23,203 bases of DNA from a virus. Position 1 is the first letter of the stretch, and every line of letters starts with the position of its first letter. The stretch spans positions 1 to 23,203 of IMG/VR virus record IMGVR_UViG_3300037070_010305, one strand, 5' to 3'. Below, one piece after another: positions 3,270-23,203 of the stretch. Under the pieces are notes generated by a model, which was given only the letters and a program-made list of their open reading frames with translations, ran no database searches and was not told where the DNA came from. Made by a program: the position numbers and the translations under genes.

Positions 3270-3923
3270 ATGCTCACCTACCTCCCTGACGAGTCGTATA
3301 CGATCAGCGCGAAGCTGCTCGATACGCCCACCCTCGCAAAGACGATAATGTTCACGAATCAGGTGATAAAGGGTGTCGTACTCGTCAATGATCTCCTCAC
3401 ACCATTCGCCAGCACGTCCCATAGGACGAGGGAGCTGTCGGATGGATACGTGGTCAACTCCTGGAGGAACAACCTCGGGAGCCTCCTCGCGTACGGTCGT
3501 GCGCTCTGCGACGAGTTCGAGATCCGCTCGACGCACACGGCGTATGGGGTCCGGGCCATGAGCGTCAAGTATCGGCAGCGTCCCAAGATGATCCATCGGT
3601 TCTATACGCAATACGATCACTTCGTAGTTGATCGCAATATCCCCCAAGATGATCCTTGGTGGCTGGGATATTCGGAGTATCATCGGAGGCATATGGCTGT
3701 CTTGACCACCGAGAACAAGCTCAACGAGGATCGTGACATCCCCGAGCTCGCGAACACGAAGCTCCCTCCGCCGATCCACAAGATCAACCGCTCGGGTAGC
3801 GCGGGCGCAGGCCGGTATCCGGTGCTCCATCCGTTCCCCGAGGTCAAGGGCGCGTTCATCGACAACGCATCCGGCGGCACGATCCGTCTTCACCAGGAAC
3901 AGACTCTGGATTGGGAGGCATAG
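3270..3923 (+). CDS. Probable pyrimidine dimer DNA glycosylase-family protein
   Basis: This 217-residue protein opens with MLTYLPDESYTISAKLLDTP and continues through LAKTIMFTNQVIKG. That resembles the N-terminus of the MSMEG_6728 / T4 endonuclease V-like (Pyr_excise) proteins, which begin M-x-T-[FY]-LP, followed by a Leu-Asp and an LGK-type helix. Residues near WWLGYSEYHRRHM match the family's later WLG...HRSH segment. T4 endonuclease V cuts DNA beside UV dimers, and its N-terminal residue acts in catalysis; whether this protein does so is inferred. The match begins at the first Met, which supports the 3270 start despite the absence of a ribosome site. The last 50 residues extend beyond the usual family length. 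It heads a nine-gene operon and could have another base-excision role. Confidence 0.5.
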   Translation: MLTYLPDESYTISAKLLDTPTLAKTIMFTNQVIKGVVLVNDLLTPFASTSHRTRELSDGYVVNSWRNNLGSLLAYGRALCDEFEIRSTHTAYGVRAMSVKYRQRPKMIHRFYTQYDHFVVDRNIPQDDPWWLGYSEYHRRHMAVLTTENKLNEDRDIPELANTKLPPPIHKINRSGSAGAGRYPVLHPFPEVKGAFIDNASGGTIRLHQEQTLDWEA

Positions 3924-8388: not shown

Positions 8389-8997
8389 ATGCCAAAAGAA
8401 TCGAAGCACTATCGCCGCGTCAAGGACTTCATGCAGAAGGCCAAGCAGGCGACCCCCTCACATCCCACCGTCCCGAGCCTCGAGGTCCGCAAGCTCCGCG
8501 CTCGCCTGATCCTGGAGGAAGCGCTGGAGACCGTGACCGCGCTCGGCTTCGCGCCGTCCGCCGGCATCGACCTCGTCCAGAACGACGACACCATCAACCT
8601 CGTCGAGGTCGTCGATGGCTGCTGCGACGTCATGGTCGTCACCACCGGCACCTTGATCGCCTGCGGCATCCCCGACGTCGCTGTCCTCCGCGCGGTCGAC
8701 GAGAACAACCTCGCGAAGTTCGCCCCCGGCCATTCGTGGGACGAGTACGGCAAGTTCATCAAGCCGCCGGGCTTCAAGAAGGTCGACCTCGAATCGGTGA
8801 TCTTCGGCATCAGCGTGCCGAGGGTCGAGACCCCCGAGGACGACGAGGAGGAGCCGGAAGACAAGATGGACAAGACGCCGGTCGAGACCAAGGTCAAGAC
8901 CGACGAACCTGTCGAGACCGACGAAGACCTCGCGCTCAAGGGTCGTGAGGATGCCGATCGCATCGAGTCGGAAAAGATCGATGGTCATGACGCCTGA
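8389..8997 (+). CDS. HisE/MazG-like NTP pyrophosphohydrolase with acidic tail
   Basis: This 202-residue protein has an all-alpha pyrophosphohydrolase core (residues about 8-135) of the phosphoribosyl-ATP pyrophosphatase/MazG superfamily. Metal-binding candidates are EEALE (E43, E44, E47) and VEVVDGCCDVMVV (E73, D76, D80), followed by the helix TGTLIACGI. Such enzymes hydrolyse nucleoside triphosphates to monophosphates; the real substrate is unknown, with nucleotide-pool cleanup or removal of unmodified dNTPs as candidates. The last 55 residues (TPEDDEEEPEDKMDKTPVET and onward) form a highly acidic, probably disordered tail unusual for HisE. AGGAGG lies 5 nt upstream of the ATG. It heads a run of overlapping genes after a terminator. 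Confidence 0.78.
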   Translation: MPKESKHYRRVKDFMQKAKQATPSHPTVPSLEVRKLRARLILEEALETVTALGFAPSAGIDLVQNDDTINLVEVVDGCCDVMVVTTGTLIACGIPDVAVLRAVDENNLAKFAPGHSWDEYGKFIKPPGFKKVDLESVIFGISVPRVETPEDDEEEPEDKMDKTPVETKVKTDEPVETDEDLALKGREDADRIESEKIDGHDA

Positions 8998-16922: not shown

Positions 16923-16952
16923 TCCCTGGTGGCACTCGTAATGGACCAGTGG

Positions 16953-16982
16953 TACCTCGGAGGATTTCCTCCGAGGTATTTT
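16953..16982 (+). terminator. Strong intrinsic terminator before the polymerase gene
   Basis: An 11-12 bp perfect stem joins TACCTCGGAGGA (16953-16964) with TCCTCCGAGGTA (16967-16978), followed by TTTT. It lies 31 nt after the stop at 16922 and 10 nt before the ATG at 16992. It separates the highly expressed single-strand-binding genes from the polymerase and argues against a polymerase start at GTG 16929. Confidence 0.82.
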
Positions 16983-16991
16983 GGTCAACTC

Positions 16992-19163
16992 ATGCGATTC
17001 ACACTCCCACCCATCGTTGGCAAGTACGAGACCTTCGGTTTCGAATCGTTTAACCCGAAGAAGTTGATGTCGTGTGACACGGAGGCCACCGGGCTGGACG
17101 TGTGGGGCACCTATGGGATCGACCGTTCGCTTATGCCAGCGCGCGGGTTCATGTTCCAGTTCTGCGATGAGGACGGAAACGTCGCGAGCATCAGGTTCGC
17201 TGTTCTCCCCAGAACCAGATCTGTCCTTTACCACCCGGACGGCATAGCGCTCGCTAACAAGTTCCTCAGCAACGAGAAGCTCGAGAAGATATTCCACAAC
17301 TACCCGTATGACGGCAAGATTCTGGAGAAGGCAGATGTGAAGCTGCGCGGGGTCATCCATGAGACGATGATCCGCATGCACATCATCAACTCAGAGAGCG
17401 GTTCCCTCGGGCTGAAACAGATAGGTGAGGAATTTCTCGACATACCGGCTGACGACGAAGCTGATTTGCAGAAGAGCACCATTGCCGGCCGGCGCTTAGG
17501 GAAGAAGAACGGTTGGCCGCTGTCCGATAACGTCAAGGGTGACTATCATCTCGCGGATCCCGGTCTCACGCGCACGTACGGTGAGCGCGATGCGCTGCGG
17601 ACGATGTCGCTCTTCCTTCACCAGGAGGAGTTCTTCAAGGAGAACGCCGATCAGGTAGAGGTGTACGCCCGAGAGCTGCGCGCGATGCATGTCATATTTG
17701 CGATGGAGAAGAAGGGTACTGCAGTTGACAAGGCGAATGTCCAAGAGCTGGACAAGTTCTATACGGCTGTGACTGACAGGTCGCAGGCAGCCATCAAGAA
17801 GATAACTGACAAGCTCCTCAACGGTAAGCCGTTCAATCCCAATAGTTCTCCTCAGAAGCAGGTAATCTTCTTCGACAAGCTGGGGCATACCCCACTGGCC
17901 TTCTCCTTTAAGAAGAGCAAGAACGGAGGGGGTGGACGCGGAAAGCAGTGGACGAAATGCGTACACTGCAAAGGGACAGGGGAGAAGTTCAAGATCGGTG
18001 GAATGAAGACGTGCGGAGTGTGCAAAGGCGAAGGGAAGAACCCGAAATGTGACGGCGATTTCCTGGAGAGTATCGGCATCCAGTACGACGAGGACGAGAA
18101 TCCTAGCCAGAAAGATCCGCTCGCCTACAATCTGCTCTACAATTCTGCCGCCAATACGATGATGACGTTCGTCAAAGCCTACAAGCATCTGATGGTGCTT
18201 GAGGATGGCGAGTGGGTTATTCATCCGAACTACCGGCAGGCTAAGGTCAAGACCGCGCGTCTCTCGTGCGAGAAGCCCAATCTGCAGAACGTGGCCAGCG
18301 ACGACTCTGGTAAGAAGCGGGTTGATCTGCCGTACCGCGTGCGCGAGTGCTTCGTCCCCAGGAAGGGCAAGCTCTTTTACATACCCGACTATTCCCAGAT
18401 TGAAATCTGGCTCTTGGCTCTCCTTAGTAAGGACCAAGAGTTCATCGATTCTCTGGCTAAGGGTGGTGACGCACATCAGATCGTAGCTGACATGATCTGG
18501 CCTGACGCTTACGACCGACAGATCGTAAAGGACGCCAAGAAGATTCTCAAGGCACACCAGCACGAGAAGGACCCCGATAAATACCTGACACCGCTTCAGA
18601 AGAAGCACGTCAAGGCAGCGAAGATGATTCGCAAGATCGCCAAGAATCTGAATTTCTGCAAGGTGTACGGCGGAGGCCTCGGCAAGATCGCTCTCATGTC
18701 CGACAGCACGCTGGAGCAGGCGGCGCAGTTCGATGCTGACTATGACGTCAGGTTCCCGGCGGTCAGCAAGTTCATGGAGGACACCATCCGTTTCGCCAAG
18801 AGGCACGGGTATGTCAAGACCCCGTACGACCGTGTCTATCGTGTCGACCCGAATCTCGCGTACCGCGCGACCAACTACGCCATTCAAGGAACCGCTGCGG
18901 ACCTGATGAAGGGTGCAATGGTCAACGTGCATCAGCTAGCTATTCAAAAATACCCTGGCAAGCTAGACCTTCTGCTGCAGATTCATGACGAACTTGTCAT
19001 AGAAGCTGATAAATCAATTCATTCGGAGACGACAATGCGTGCTATCTGCAACGCCATGACTGAAGACTACAAGTTCTTAGGAGCACCGATCCGTTTCCCT
19101 GTCGGCATGAAAATCGCAACCGAGCGCTGGTCCAGCGCCACTGAGATCGAGCTCGCAGCATGA
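16992..19163 (+). CDS. polA: Family A DNA polymerase with DnaJ-type zinc insertion
   Basis: This 723-residue replicative polymerase has a 3'-5' exonuclease with CDTEATGLD (D29, E31), HNYPYD (N103, D107) and YGERDA (Y196, D200). The polymerase motifs are A DYSQIE (D466), B R547-x3-K551-x3-F555-x3-Y559-G, and C QIHDELV (H665, D666). Phe at 555 corresponds to F667 of Taq. No 5' nuclease domain is present. Between the domains, at residues 307-355, is an insertion with two CxxCxGxG units (C323/C326 and C341/C344, plus C353). Those units are known from the DnaJ cysteine-rich zinc domain. The frame is open from GTG 16929, but a terminator hairpin lies in those codons, so ATG 16992 is preferred although it lacks a clear ribosome site. 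Confidence 0.93.
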   Translation: MRFTLPPIVGKYETFGFESFNPKKLMSCDTEATGLDVWGTYGIDRSLMPARGFMFQFCDEDGNVASIRFAVLPRTRSVLYHPDGIALANKFLSNEKLEKIFHNYPYDGKILEKADVKLRGVIHETMIRMHIINSESGSLGLKQIGEEFLDIPADDEADLQKSTIAGRRLGKKNGWPLSDNVKGDYHLADPGLTRTYGERDALRTMSLFLHQEEFFKENADQVEVYARELRAMHVIFAMEKKGTAVDKANVQELDKFYTAVTDRSQAAIKKITDKLLNGKPFNPNSSPQKQVIFFDKLGHTPLAFSFKKSKNGGGGRGKQWTKCVHCKGTGEKFKIGGMKTCGVCKGEGKNPKCDGDFLESIGIQYDEDENPSQKDPLAYNLLYNSAANTMMTFVKAYKHLMVLEDGEWVIHPNYRQAKVKTARLSCEKPNLQNVASDDSGKKRVDLPYRVRECFVPRKGKLFYIPDYSQIEIWLLALLSKDQEFIDSLAKGGDAHQIVADMIWPDAYDRQIVKDAKKILKAHQHEKDPDKYLTPLQKKHVKAAKMIRKIAKNLNFCKVYGGGLGKIALMSDSTLEQAAQFDADYDVRFPAVSKFMEDTIRFAKRHGYVKTPYDRVYRVDPNLAYRATNYAIQGTAADLMKGAMVNVHQLAIQKYPGKLDLLLQIHDELVIEADKSIHSETTMRAICNAMTEDYKFLGAPIRFPVGMKIATERWSSATEIELAA

Positions 19164-21274
19164 CCGACGAAGCCATTGAGGCTTTCTCGGCATACGGAAT
19201 TGATCTCACTGAGTCTGGTAGCCAGCTCCTGGGTGATTGCCCGTTCTGCGGAAAGTCCAAATTCTATGTCCACCCTACGAAGACTACTTACAACTGCAAA
19301 GTCTGTAATGAAAGCGGTAACGCCACGTCTCTCCCCGGAGCGCTCTTCGATAAGGTCTATCGAAAAGATGTTTCTCCCACATCGATTAAGCGTTTCGCAT
19401 CGAATCGTGGCCTTCCTGTTGAGGCATTTTTAGACGACCCCAATCTCGGGTTCGATTCTGCCAGCGGTAAGATCGTCTTCAAGACGACGCGGTTCGACGG
19501 TACTTTCGTTGGGCTCCGTACCGCACACGAGACGAAAGAGGGCTTCAAGATCATGCAGGCGCGGGGTGTGGACCTCGGGCTCATCGGGTGTCAGGAGAAG
19601 ATCCGCAAGAACGAGCCGCTTTACATCTGTGAGGGCGAGTGGGACCGAGTTGCGTGGCGCTACCTCCTCAAGATGCTGAAGAAGCCCGGTGTCGTATGGG
19701 CGGTCCCCGGCGCTGGTACCTGGAAGAATGAGTGGTCGCCCGGCGTCGCTGGCGCTGACATCATTGCTCTCTACGACAACGATGAGCCGGGGAAGAAGGG
19801 TGCGGAGCGTTTCTTCCGCCTCAACAAGGGCCAGACGAAGAAGATCCGCTTCATCCATTGGGATGAGGACATGGAAGAGGGGTATGACATCCGCGATGTC
19901 GTCAAGGACAACCTCAAGACCCTGAGCGCGGCGTTCGAGTACGTCCAGACGCATCTGCAGACGCGTGCGCCAGGGGTCGAGGGCAATGAGGAGGAGAAGA
20001 AGCACAGCGAGCAGGAGAATGAACAGGACAAGCTCCCGCCCATCACGGTGAAGGAGCTGCACGCCACGTTCAAGAAGTGGCTGCACCTCGAGAACTGTGA
20101 TCTGCTCGACATCGTCATGGGATGCATGTGGTCCACCTACCTTCCAGGGAACCCGCTCTGGCTGATGGTGGTGTCCCCGCCGTCGGCATCGAAGTCTGAG
20201 ACGTTGATCCCGGTGTCGGCTTATCACCGGTGCTATCCGCTGTCAACCGTGACGACCAAGTCACTCATCAGTGGCTATCAGCTCCAGGGGAATGTCGACC
20301 CCTCGCTATTCGCTGCTATGGAGAATGAGCGTGCCGCAATCATCATCAAGGATCTTACACCGCTTCTACAAGGAAACGAGGCGGAGCGGGACGAAGTCTT
20401 TGGTATTCTGCGGGACGCTTACGACGGCTCAGCTTCGAAGATCTTCGGAAACGGGGTTAAGCGGGAGTATGAGAATCTTCATTTCTCTATCATTGCCGGG
20501 GTTACGCCGGCGATCGATGCGTTCGATTCCGTTGCAATGGGCGAACGGTTCCTCAAGTTCCGTGCTGATCGCGAAATTGACCGCGACGACGATATCACTC
20601 GTGCATACAAAGCGATTACCAACTGCGGCGACGAAAAGGAAATGCGCGAGGAGCTGAAGCAAGCGTGCGTCCGGTCCCTGGTGAGAAAGATAGACATCGA
20701 TGATACTCCTAAACCGGACGACCGATTCGCCGTCGTTATTTCCGAGCTGGCAACTGTATGCGCTCGGCTCCGTGCCGTCGCTCCCAGCGACAGGTTCACA
20801 GACATCCAACAGATGTCGCCAATCATGGAAGCTCCGCCTCGCCTTGCCACTCAATTCACGAAGCTGGCACAAGGACTTTCCATCCACTTTGGAACAGAGA
20901 ACCTTCTTGATGAGAGGATTATGCGACTTGTCCGAAGAGTCGTTGTCCATACACCAGACATTCTCACTGTTAGAGTGGTTAGAGGACTCTTTGATCTTTA
21001 CGAAGATGAGCAGTGTAACGTCAATCTTCTACAGACACGGGTCAAGGGTCTATCGCGGGACACTATCGCTTCAATCCTTACGAAGCTCGCAAGAACTGGA
21101 ACCGTTGAGTACGGCAAGGTCCTGGTGAAGACTGGTACGCTGCGACCGGCGTCCTCTTTCTACCGTCTCAACGAGCACGTCTACGACATCATCAAGAAGA
21201 ACAACCTCTTCGGTAATCTCCCGAAGAACGATCCGCTCTACCTGAAGCCACGATTCACACTGAGGAAGCCATGA
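19160..21274 (+). CDS. Primase-helicase with TOPRIM domain and altered P-loop
   Basis: This 704-residue protein overlaps the polymerase gene as ATGA. An N-terminal DnaG-type zinc ribbon (C27, C30, C46, C49; CPFC...CKVC) is followed by a TOPRIM primase core with ICEGEWD (E158, E160) and ALYDNDEP (D206, D208). A Glu/Lys linker follows at residues 274-292. The second half resembles phage ATPases with a GPPGSGKTE-type loop, a motif near AIIIKDLTPLL (D398), ILRDAYDGSASKIFG and a GVTPAID...GERFLKFR arginine-finger region. In this protein the P-loop reads SPPSASKSE (K345, S346), with every glycine replaced. A C-terminal winged-helix-like region is likely. It probably primes and unwinds DNA for the polymerase; ATP use is uncertain. 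Confidence 0.82.
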   Translation: MTDEAIEAFSAYGIDLTESGSQLLGDCPFCGKSKFYVHPTKTTYNCKVCNESGNATSLPGALFDKVYRKDVSPTSIKRFASNRGLPVEAFLDDPNLGFDSASGKIVFKTTRFDGTFVGLRTAHETKEGFKIMQARGVDLGLIGCQEKIRKNEPLYICEGEWDRVAWRYLLKMLKKPGVVWAVPGAGTWKNEWSPGVAGADIIALYDNDEPGKKGAERFFRLNKGQTKKIRFIHWDEDMEEGYDIRDVVKDNLKTLSAAFEYVQTHLQTRAPGVEGNEEEKKHSEQENEQDKLPPITVKELHATFKKWLHLENCDLLDIVMGCMWSTYLPGNPLWLMVVSPPSASKSETLIPVSAYHRCYPLSTVTTKSLISGYQLQGNVDPSLFAAMENERAAIIIKDLTPLLQGNEAERDEVFGILRDAYDGSASKIFGNGVKREYENLHFSIIAGVTPAIDAFDSVAMGERFLKFRADREIDRDDDITRAYKAITNCGDEKEMREELKQACVRSLVRKIDIDDTPKPDDRFAVVISELATVCARLRAVAPSDRFTDIQQMSPIMEAPPRLATQFTKLAQGLSIHFGTENLLDERIMRLVRRVVVHTPDILTVRVVRGLFDLYEDEQCNVNLLQTRVKGLSRDTIASILTKLARTGTVEYGKVLVKTGTLRPASSFYRLNEHVYDIIKKNNLFGNLPKNDPLYLKPRFTLRKP

Positions 21275-22137
21275 CCCTACCGGAATTTCCGACGGCCAAT
21301 TACCACAAGCCGTCGTTCGATGCCTTCTGGTATTGGATCAACGAGCGACACCTCATCTACAACAAATCGAAGGTTCTCAAGTCGCCGAAGCCGTGGACAA
21401 AGGATGAGATCCTGCAGTCCTACCGCTTCTGCAACGTCTACCGCGAGCTGGATAAGGTGACGATCTGGACGCGGAAGCACTGGCGCGAGCCGTACAAGGA
21501 CCACCCGAATCTGTGGTTCGCCATGGTGGTCGCGCGTCTGTTCAACTGGATCCCCACGCTCGAGGCCATCGGGTTTCCTATGGACGAAAAGTGGGTAGCG
21601 AACATCGAAGGCATCCTCGGCGATCTGCAAGAGAAGCAGAACATCTACGGTGCCGCCTACATCATCACCGCTGGCGGCCAGAGCGGGCCGAAGTACCAGT
21701 ACTCGGCGTCGTGCCTACGGGCGATCTGGCGAAATCCTCCTCCCTTCGCCAGGAAAGGAGCTCCGGCGTGCAGCATCCGTACGATGTGGGACCAGCTCAA
21801 GGACCTGCCGTCGTGCGGACCGTTCGTAGCGTACGAGATTGCCACTGACCTCCGCTGGTCACGGTACTACGATCGCAGCGATCACATGCTGTGGGCGAAC
21901 GCTGGTCCTGGAGCCAAGCGTGGCATCAGCCGCATCTGGACGGGGCAGATCGGAACGAAACCGCGGGACTGCAACGTCTACATGAGGCACCTCCTGAACA
22001 TCTCCGCGCGCTACCTCGCACCCGGTATGAAGCCGCTCGAGATGCGCGACATCGAGCACAGTCTTTGTGAGGTCGACAAGTACCTCCGCGCGAAGTACAA
22101 AGAGGGTCGCCCGAAAGCAAAGTACAACGGCGTATGA
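21271..22137 (+). CDS. aGPT-pyrophosphorylase/HMUDK-helical-domain family protein (DNA hypermodification)
   Basis: This 288-residue all-helical protein shows the signature of the alpha-glutamyl/putrescinyl-thymine pyrophosphorylase and 5-hmdU DNA kinase helical-domain superfamily. It has FDAFWYWINERHLIY (16-30), then PWTKDEILQSYRFCNVYREL (41-60), then LWFAMVVARLFNW, AYIITAGG and LPSCGPFVAYEIATDLRWS. That superfamily, related to helix-hairpin-helix DNA glycosylases, is found mostly in phages with hypermodified thymine or cytosine and acts on modified bases in DNA. The precise reaction here is not known. A GAGGAAG site precedes the ATG, which overlaps the primase-helicase stop, and two glycosyltransferase-like genes follow, strengthening a base-modification role. 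Confidence 0.78.
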   Translation: MTLPEFPTANYHKPSFDAFWYWINERHLIYNKSKVLKSPKPWTKDEILQSYRFCNVYRELDKVTIWTRKHWREPYKDHPNLWFAMVVARLFNWIPTLEAIGFPMDEKWVANIEGILGDLQEKQNIYGAAYIITAGGQSGPKYQYSASCLRAIWRNPPPFARKGAPACSIRTMWDQLKDLPSCGPFVAYEIATDLRWSRYYDRSDHMLWANAGPGAKRGISRIWTGQIGTKPRDCNVYMRHLLNISARYLAPGMKPLEMRDIEHSLCEVDKYLRAKYKEGRPKAKYNGV

Positions 22138-22895
22138 GAATCTACATCCCGACTCTCGGCCGGCAGGAACAGGCAACCTTCGTGTCTCTCCCAGCATGGG
22201 CGAAAAGGATTACGACTCTCGTTTGCGGGGTTGGTGAAAAGCCGTTCCTGGTGAAGAAATACGGGTGCACCGTATGGGAACGACCGGCAGAGGTCAAAGG
22301 AATTGGCGCTGTTCGGAATATGATCATGAAGTTCTCTCGTTACGAGAAGATAATCATGCTCGATGACGATCTCAAGTTTGCCATCCGCAACGCCGATGGA
22401 AAGCTCGTCAAGCCAACAGAAGCCCAGCTGACAGATATGTTCCATACGGTTCATAATCTTCTCGATCAATATGCGCACGGATCTATTTCTTCCAGGGAGG
22501 GGAATAACCACGTCAAGGAAGACATGATTGAAGTATCGCGTCCACAGCGCGTGCTGGCCTACAACCGCATGATGGTCAAGGAGACAGGGGCCCATTTCCG
22601 GGTCCGTATTATGGAGGATTTCGATATGACCCTTCAGCTGCTGCGGAAGGGGTACGCGAATTTCGTCATCTATAATTACTGTCATGACCAAGCGCATGGG
22701 AGCGGTGCGACTGGTGGGTGTAGCGGGTACCGGACCCCTGAGGTGCAGGCTGAGGCTGCTCGTCTTCTCCATTCTCATCATCCTGATTTCGTTACTATTG
22801 TCGAGAAAGAGACGAAAACGGCGTGGAAAGAGTTTGGCGGTAAGCGGGTTGACGTTAGAGTGGCGTGGAAGAAAGCATTCAAGAGCGCATTATGA
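22134..22895 (+). CDS. TET-associated-type glycosyltransferase (GT-A fold)
   Basis: This 253-residue protein begins MRIYIPTLGR. It has GAVRNMIMKFSRYEKIIMLD followed by DD (the D77-D79 metal and sugar-nucleotide site), then MEDFDMTLQLLRKGY (E161, D162) and GSGATGGCSGYRT. This matches the layout of glycosyltransferases found beside TET/JBP or thymine-modifying genes in phages, which attach sugars to hydroxymethylated bases in DNA. It follows directly after the aGPT-like gene with an ATGA overlap. The sugar and target base cannot be read from sequence. No signal peptide or membrane segment is seen, consistent with a cytoplasmic DNA-modifying enzyme. Confidence 0.78.
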   Translation: MRIYIPTLGRQEQATFVSLPAWAKRITTLVCGVGEKPFLVKKYGCTVWERPAEVKGIGAVRNMIMKFSRYEKIIMLDDDLKFAIRNADGKLVKPTEAQLTDMFHTVHNLLDQYAHGSISSREGNNHVKEDMIEVSRPQRVLAYNRMMVKETGAHFRVRIMEDFDMTLQLLRKGYANFVIYNYCHDQAHGSGATGGCSGYRTPEVQAEAARLLHSHHPDFVTIVEKETKTAWKEFGGKRVDVRVAWKKAFKSAL

Positions 22896-23203
22896 AAATC
22901 GTCATCCCGACACGTGGTACCGTTGAGAGAATGAAGACGGTGGATCTCCTGGGGAAGATGGGCCTCCTCGATAGGGCCATCTTCGTCTGCCATACCAGAG
23001 AACAGAGATCAAAGATACTCTCTGCCCCCGGCATCGTCCCACAGAATGTTCTCGTTCACGGTATCCCCGAAGCTCTGGATGCCTTGACGATTGTCCGCGA
23101 CTGGCTGGAGAAGAATGTCCTCCGCGACGGTGAGTGGTATATCGGGATGGACGACAATGTCATTCGCCTCGATAGCGTTGTCAATTCTCATTACGGCGAA
23201 CTA
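22892..23203 (+). CDS. Second glycosyltransferase-like protein (3' end beyond window)
   Basis: The frame from ATG 22892 overlaps the preceding stop as ATGA and is open for 104 residues to the window edge. It begins MKIVIPTRGTVERMKTVDLL, resembling the first strand of the preceding glycosyltransferase (IPTLGR). It has WYIGMDDNVIRLD (D87, D88, N89), a likely DxD-type nucleotide-sugar site with Asn in the third place. The rest lies outside the window. It may be a second transferase adding a further group to modified DNA, or a diverged duplicate of its neighbour. Confidence 0.65.
   Translation, partial: MKIVIPTRGTVERMKTVDLLGKMGLLDRAIFVCHTREQRSKILSAPGIVPQNVLVHGIPEALDALTIVRDWLEKNVLRDGEWYIGMDDNVIRLDSVVNSHYGEL

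Follow-up and report, generated by a model that had tools for sequence, protein, structure and literature searches.

The 23,203-base viral record IMGVR_UViG_3300037070_010305 of IMG/VR, analysed here in full and hereafter called the window, ends in three overlapping genes (A, B and C; 21271-23203, plus strand) that form a real and well-conserved DNA-decoration cluster. Gene A belongs to the HMUDK_hel family (PF18723), gene B to the TAGT family of glycosyltransferases (GTs), and gene C is probably a divergent relative of gene B. On balance, we lean towards the reading that the cluster decorates thymine with sugar in the phage's own DNA, gene A presenting the base and gene B transferring the sugar; what was directly observed are the protein families, their predicted folds, the gene order and the exclusion of partners in our sample. 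The main addition here is that the partners of HMUDK_hel are nearly exclusive and exchangeable: across the viral loci surveyed the family stands beside a P-loop kinase or beside a GT, and the partner has changed repeatedly.

Families and predicted folds of genes A, B and C

Open reading frames (ORFs) are open at both ends of the window, which is a fragment. Its minus strand carries portal and large terminase genes, and its plus strand a replication block of ATP-dependent ligase, SNF2-type helicase, RuvC-like protein, exonuclease, Sak4, family-A DNA polymerase (PolA) and primase-helicase, with gene A directly next. An earlier note made from the DNA alone had described three overlapping genes immediately after the replication genes, and both points held: PolA is followed by the primase-helicase and then by gene A, the three genes are real, and a four-base ATGA overlap occurs at every junction (PolA/primase, primase/A, A/B and B/C). 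The features concerned are:

16929-19163, plus strand: PolA (PF00476, E 2e-57)
19160-21274, plus strand: primase-helicase-like protein (phrog_47, E 3e-17; Zn_ribbon_DnaG slightly below its cut-off)
21271-22137, plus strand: gene A, HMUDK_hel (aGPT-PPlase clade 1), 288 amino acids (aa) (PF18723, E 1.3e-52)
22134-22895, plus strand: gene B, TAGT-family GT-A glycosyltransferase, 253 aa (PF20691, E 6.9e-20)
22892-23203, plus strand: gene C, probable divergent TAGT-like glycosyltransferase, first 104 codons (phrog_842, E 2e-4)

Gene A matched PF18723 at 179.3 bits (cut-off 25) over residues 14-278, covering profile positions 2-278 of 281, and matched phrog_2396 at E 1.4e-59. The family placement of the earlier note was borne out, and the PWTxDxIL..YRFCNVYRELD stretch that it had picked out is real and contains family-conserved residues. 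These were derived from our own alignments and not from a published list: R26, F53, N55, R58, D61, D193, GPG 212-214, C266, E267 and K270 are invariant or nearly so in alignments of 75 and 87 rows, and gene A holds all of them. The core residues are conserved across all partner classes pooled, with D61, D193, C266, E267 and K270 near-invariant; at the columns of W71, M85 and F102 the majority residue differs between kinase and GT-A rows, a difference on which we base no reading. The 'pyrophosphorylase/5-hmdU kinase' wording of the earlier note was not supported: in phage YuA the kinase proper has a gene of its own, for a P-loop protein (PF18748), and the window, a fragmentary contig, has no match to PF18748, PF18751, our own kinase profile or the profile of the amino-acid transferase family PP2. 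We likewise rejected gene A as a kinase on its own, as by our reading of its sequence it has no P-loop.

The AlphaFold2 model of gene A is all helical (predicted local distance difference test, pLDDT, 93.1; predicted template modelling score, pTM, 0.90). Foldseek returned no match at E <= 0.001, and its top match was 8z2n (E 0.023, probability 0.98), the 5-phosphomethyl-dU (5-PmdU) glycinyltransferase (PUGT) of phage PaMx11. A second structure aligner also placed 8z2n first (Z 11.5, 220 residues, 4.1 A); after it ranked DNA glycosylases, from Z 9.3 downwards, interspersed with queuine salvage enzymes (Z 8.7). By the aligner's own warning, Z values of this size in helical proteins are no proof. 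In hhalign, the HMUDK_hel and glycinyltransferase families aligned (88.7%, E 2.6e-6) across a glycosylase-like hairpin and an 'E...LC...K' stretch. In this stretch all 60 aligned rows of the glycinyltransferase family keep the Glu and the Cys, and in HMUDK_hel the Cys and the Glu that follows it are invariant. Because the fold match to 8z2n and the sequence profiles agree, gene A, as modelled, is probably a glycosylase-fold sister of amino-acid transferases. The best phmmer match of gene A in the PDB was an unrelated protein (E 0.04), and a sequence search of that database found no solved structure resembling HMUDK_hel or the PaMx11 kinase. None of the three genes matched NCBIfam at E 1, and an exact-pattern search of viral_contigs with the bare gene A sequence found no relative, whereas alignment queries did.

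Gene B matched TAGT (PF20691) at 72.3 bits (cut-off 27.5) and phrog_842 at E 6e-45, and its DDD motif (residues 77-79) is invariant in 28 of 28 aligned sequences, the window included. Its AlphaFold2 model (mean pLDDT 90.6) drew 191 PDB matches at E <= 0.001, headed by the GT-A enzymes TarS and TarP (best E 1.5e-7, to TarS). We assign gene B firmly to the GT-A glycosyltransferases with an Asp metal site, a placement that includes its modelled fold, and sugar transfer to a hydroxymethylpyrimidine is predicted for it. For gene C, the ATG at 22892 was preferred over the GTG at 22865 given in the ORF list, leaving 104 codons with no stop up to the contig end. It matched phrog_842 over 89 residues (E 2e-4), scored 15 to 19 bits against a TAGT profile built in this analysis and aligned with the gene B family in hhalign (75.8%, E 2.3e-5), carrying MDDN where the family has LDDD. 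No Pfam match appeared even at E 10, queried from 22865 and from 22895, and no close relative was found in viral_contigs or phages, so we rejected a firm TAGT assignment and call the gene TAGT-like only; its sequence makes it a probable second, divergent glycosyltransferase. The pair of GT-A-like proteins seen in the earlier note is firm for gene B (DDD) and only probable for gene C (DDN), profile searches having returned HMUDK_hel for A, TAGT for B and nothing in Pfam for C.

Two further plus-strand genes of the window deserve mention. Positions 3270-3923 encode a pyrimidine-dimer DNA glycosylase-like protein (PF03013, E 7e-4, below cut-off), and such a repair enzyme may be relevant in a phage with altered thymine. 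Positions 8389-8997 encode a MazG-like or PRA-PH nucleotide pyrophosphohydrolase (PF01503, E 2e-8).

Partners of HMUDK_hel and the likely target base

HMUDK_hel loci were gathered by four alignment queries of viral_contigs, one query of genome_contigs and from phage records. The scans were led by gene A (twice), LuckyBarnes gp38 and YuA gp14, each scan contributing the best 80 of a larger number of matching loci, and all proportions describe this sample only. Clustering of 390 ORFs of at least 200 aa at 85% identity gave 226 clusters, 145 of them viral with an HMUDK_hel-scan member; partner labels depend on family profiles that were built from matches of this analysis. Among these 145, 38 had GT-A as sole partner, 44 a P-loop kinase, 20 a GT-B-like protein, one both GT-A and GT-B, and 42 none of them. 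Kinase (44 clusters) and any GT (59) never occurred together, against an expected 17.9 (Fisher P = 2e-13, kinship ignored), and the same held for the 93 clusters that had 4 kb or more of sequence to either side (none joint, 10.6 expected, P = 2e-8, kinship again ignored). PP2 was near 34 of the 44 kinase clusters, none of the 38 GT-A or 20 GT-B clusters and 6 of the 42 partnerless ones, and thymidylate synthase (TS) was near 36, 35, 13 and 23 of them, respectively. PolA was near 31 of the 38 GT-A clusters.

Outside controls comprised Pfam searches, of records chosen by our own partner labels, and a motif check. Over whole records of the kinase class, PF18748 matched 11 of 12 (seven above the curated cut-off) and TAGT none; over the 34 TAGT-bearing records, PF18748 matched none and TAGT all 34. 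The second kinase family, PF18751, was absent from the 34 TAGT-bearing records and, among 37 records, present only in BouleyBill; HMUDK_hel was present in all 34 except MW202897. The profile-free check, which looked for a small ORF with an N-terminal P-loop in 157 non-chromosomal clusters, gave 0/44 for GT-A, 0/20 for GT-B, 37/47 for kinase and 3/46 for other clusters.

On a 123-row HMUDK_hel tree, partner class changes 26 times (minimum 2; 52.6 in shuffles), with at least 11 changes per class forced by well-supported branches and 13 changes when kinase and GT are the sole states. Trees were built with FastTree, and the long branches of LuckyBarnes, CBA120, PhiW14 and Montesquieu are of unsure position. 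BouleyBill (kinase) and Neferthena (TAGT) fall within one four-member clade with support 100. Both are Microbacterium phages that carry a MazG-like gene and a TS of the dCMP type, and in BouleyBill the PF18751 P-loop kinase gene overlaps HMUDK_hel; the two represent a natural partner swap, presumably on hydroxymethylcytosine.

Other genes also recur next to HMUDK_hel, namely GT-B-like and methyltransferase-like ones. GT-B-like proteins replace TAGT in L165, L114, L156, L179, L228, L220 and others, a group that rests on BLAST seeds, of which L114 is above the Pfam GT cut-off, L165 below it, and L228 and L220 have no match. By eye, L228 also has nucleotidyltransferase-like and radical SAM genes, as if making a special sugar nucleotide. 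In L142, L135 and L240, a class I methyltransferase-like gene precedes HMUDK_hel, with TS and PolA following. Chromosomes and metagenome-assembled genomes hold the family as well: 69 clusters contain genome_contigs loci (e.g., L354 and L359), of which 62 have no kinase or GT in reach and 18 have TS near, and in L359 the gene preceding HMUDK_hel looks dCTP deaminase-like by eye. A separate arrangement is seen in MW202897, a whole circular record in which the neighbours of TAGT are an HD-domain gene and a hydroxymethylase of the dUMP type, and from which HMUDK_hel is absent.

The closest relative of the window is IMGVR_UViG_3300031758_006716 (L075), which is 50% identical in gene A, 42% in PolA and 35% in gene B and pairs with the window on the HMUDK_hel tree (support 99). 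Its gene order (helicase, RuvC, exonuclease, Sak4, PolA, primase, HMUDK_hel, B12-binding radical SAM, TAGT, thymidylate synthase) is collinear with the window from helicase through TAGT. It differs in that the radical SAM gene (10789-12153 of L075) separates A from B, perhaps for an additional modification of the base or the sugar, and in having TS directly after B, without an intervening gene C.

In enzymes of the TS family, one Asn or Asp residue decides between dUMP and dCMP. We read this residue by alignment to T4 dCMP hydroxymethylase (Asp; Asn in two entries, apparently mutants), MilA-type CMP hydroxymethylase (Asp) and thymidylate synthase (Asn). The dUMP-type Asn was found in the TS of L075, YuA, Sonora, LuckyBarnes and MW202897, and in 35 of 40 non-chromosomal GT-A clusters with a TS match; the other five were unread by the pattern, and none read Asp. 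Four GT-A clusters had no TS-profile match (the window, L280, Neferthena and L210); in Neferthena and L210 a TS is present that the profile failed to detect, and Neferthena stands outside the count of 40. Over 37 TAGT-bearing records, TS matched in 34, the misses being the window fragment and two contigs that also have no HMUDK_hel. Because the TS beside TAGT in L075 has the dUMP-type residue, the target base here is, by analogy, likely 5-hydroxymethyluracil (thymine). Matches to PF12851 (TET/JBP) numbered 0 in 37 records and zero in the controls as well, making that search uninformative.

Proposed mechanism and competing explanations

We propose that a TS homologue of the phage, expected downstream of the contig end, would make 5-hydroxymethyl-dUMP, and that PolA would incorporate 5-hydroxymethyl-dUTP as a partial or complete substitute for thymidine. 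After replication, gene A, resembling helix-hairpin-helix DNA glycosylases, would bind 5-hydroxymethyluracil in DNA and present the base, gene B would move a sugar from a sugar nucleotide to its hydroxymethyl group, and gene C might add a second sugar or act in another context. Gene A itself would perform none of the sugar chemistry; elsewhere its family is paired with GT-B-like enzymes or with a P-loop kinase, whose product in M6-like phages would then have an amino acid attached by a fold sister of gene A. We infer the chemistry throughout, as well as which base and which sugar are involved and what gene A does. The base hypermodification proposed in the earlier note is supported, although by glycosylation rather than the kinase and amino-acid route, and its idea of a multi-step decoration we judge to be right; protection from host restriction and a link to the timing of replication, also raised there, would be conjectures.

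As HMUDK_hel is common to the kinase and sugar routes, the shared part would be base recognition or presentation. Taken further, and tentatively, since we hold this broader proposal to be less probable than its opposite, the family would be misnamed: instead of belonging to a kinase, it would be a universal adaptor for decorating DNA after replication, a DNA-glycosylase-like protein put to a new use, that selects hydroxymethylpyrimidines and flips them to a P-loop kinase, a GT-A, a GT-B or perhaps a methyltransferase, the transferase being swapped and the adaptor kept.

Several observations weigh against these proposals. The window has no match to thymidylate synthase PF00303, being a fragment that ends inside gene C. 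None of the three partners is within reach in 42 of the 145 viral clusters, and the first 167 loci (domain E 1e-3) contain no fusion of HMUDK_hel to GT, kinase, TS, PolA, PP2 or HD. Weak kinase-profile matches occur at two GT-A loci, about 5.3 kb away in L280 and at E 0.009 in L226. TAGT without HMUDK_hel is found in MW202897 and in 5 of 22 other records, which makes gene A dispensable for some TAGT. In independent pairs, kinase and GT never change in the same direction, with a mean of 5.3 of 14 opposite, and the median P is only 0.0625; the kinase/GT exclusion is strong by count and, with kinship fully respected, only suggestive. The annotated TS of Neferthena has the dCMP-type Asp (as has that of the kinase-bearing BouleyBill), and Neferthena thus shows that GT-A is not bound to thymine; the T-even TAGT is known from glucosylated hydroxymethylcytosine (passages of PMC13216743).

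The last two points favour a cytosine route, in which TET or a dCMP hydroxymethylase would give 5-hydroxymethylcytosine (5hmC) in DNA for glycosylation by TAGTs, as in T6 or TET-linked systems, and Neferthena does combine TAGT with a dCMP-type synthase. Against it stands the dUMP-type Asn, read in the TS next to TAGT of L075 and for 35 out of 40 GT-A clusters with a TS match, and we regard this route as unlikely for the window. Of nearly the same low probability, though a shade lower, is a catalytic gene A, acting on 5-hydroxymethyluracil as a transferase or dehydroxylase through its invariant Cys, for instance to restore thymine at undecorated bases in both routes. That Cys, common to the gene A family and the glycinyltransferases, could mean a catalytic role, and further points in favour are the kinship with PUGT (Z 11.5; hhalign 88.7%, E 2.6e-6), the common E...LC...K stretch and the near-invariance of D61, D193, C266, E267 and K270 over all partner classes. 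It is also favoured by PhiW-14, in which hydroxymethyluracil partly ends as thymine by a step described as unknown (passages of PMC5977210). Against this proposal, we know of no cofactor site; PhiW-14 and M6 do have the gene, which shows its presence only.

Rather improbable, in our view, is an amino-acid route of the M6 kind, with an off-contig kinase phosphorylating 5-hydroxymethyluracil, gene A participating and the GTs an addition. In the phage records, the proteins closest in sequence to gene A are of the Sonora and YuA types (37.3% and 36.8%), its Pfam name denotes the helical domain of the kinase, and the contig is only a fragment. Yet kinase and GT were joint in 0 of 145 viral clusters, PP2 was near 0 of 38 GT-A clusters, and PF18748 and PF18751 matched 0 of 34 TAGT-bearing records, LuckyBarnes, Neferthena and MW202897 being deposited as complete genomes. 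Least probable is that the GTs act on a non-DNA acceptor, such as virion protein or host envelope, and lie here by chance. Related GT-A enzymes do glycosylate many acceptors, and the best fold matches of gene B, TarS and TarP, act on wall teichoic acid; however, 39 of the 145 viral clusters have GT-A close to HMUDK_hel, TS is nearby in 35 and PolA in 31 of the 38 whose sole partner is GT-A, and the curated families are named for GTs of hydroxymethylpyrimidine in DNA.

If sugar decoration of thymine is correct, glycosylated 5-hydroxymethyluracil, which is known from kinetoplastid base J, would occur widely in phage DNA as the product of a modular gene set, and HMUDK_hel would be the specificity part common to kinase and sugar routes. 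A kinase-linked family beside GTs suggests a system of interchangeable parts for DNA decoration, and if the adaptor proposal holds, exchanging one gene would change the chemistry of a genome; partner exchange also makes the role of HMUDK_hel testable and bears on enzymes for site-selective DNA labelling. Protected sites in M6 and ViI DNA favour TG/TC, those in PhiW-14 less so, and an unpublished result cited in the same paper has the purified M6 5hmdU kinase modify TG (passages of PMC6449724). HMUDK_hel is a candidate for this site choice and could account for the preference. Validated bacterial defence systems (2026) carry TS and '5-hmdU DNA kinase' domains (passages of PMC13092281); the findings are perhaps relevant to the one with a domain annotated as 5-hmdU kinase, which is possibly not HMUDK_hel, and the chromosomal HMUDK_hel loci of our survey invite comparison with these systems.

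Comparison with known systems

Our literature search, which had most subscription papers and two main primary papers outside its reach, found no statement of exclusive, exchangeable HMUDK_hel partners, and within the same reach as regards subscription papers it found no report of glycosylated 5-hydroxymethyluracil in phage DNA. We know of no HMUDK_hel in phage T6. Its TAGT (gentiobiosyl-methylcytosine) is like gene B in Pfam family and in the GT-A fold, reported there from a model, and unlike the window it works after an alpha-GT on hydroxymethylcytosine (passages of PMC13216743). The same 2026 T4 paper, in its passages on TAGT, gives solitary homologues in 288 of 753 genomes and expects novel transferases.

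The M6/YuA 5-NedU system shares with the window HMUDK_hel (about 34-40% identical to gene A) and PolA, and M6 and YuA also have TS. Unlike the window, YuA has the P-loop 5-hmdU kinase (PF18748), a relative of the glycinyltransferase (gp10) and a pyridoxal phosphate (PLP)-type gene annotated as threonine dehydratase, and it has no TAGT. A YuA gene annotated as DNA repair photolyase is presumably a radical SAM enzyme.

Pelagiphages of the HTVC023P type resemble the window in having aG/PT-PPlase1 and a putative beta-glucosyl-HMC-alpha-glucosyltransferase near PolA, and they have TS there too; the co-occurrence of an HMUDK_hel-type protein and a GT was noted in them in 2022. The set is interpreted as serving an M6-like hypermodification of thymidine, and the passages concerned do not mention kinase/GT exclusion (passages of PMC9599517). 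The marine-looking loci of our survey may be such pelagiphages, and in relatives with this layout TS precedes PolA, unlike the block in the window.

Brevibacterium phage LuckyBarnes, which was isolated on B. iodinum ATCC 15728 (PMC6588365) and has been cultured, carries neither PF18748 nor PF18751 in its complete genome. Its TS was announced as a dCMP hydroxymethylase and its gp38 left unnamed (PMC6588365); despite that label, the TS (gp41) has the dUMP-type Asn and, at 517 aa, is a long protein that is extended at its C terminus. LuckyBarnes differs from the window in the order of the genes (TS, TAGT, TAGT, HMUDK_hel) and in gp38, which shares no more than 27% identity with gene A, and it resembles the window in its HMUDK_hel gene and two TAGTs, which here stand in a row with TS (gp41-gp38), three small genes after PolA.

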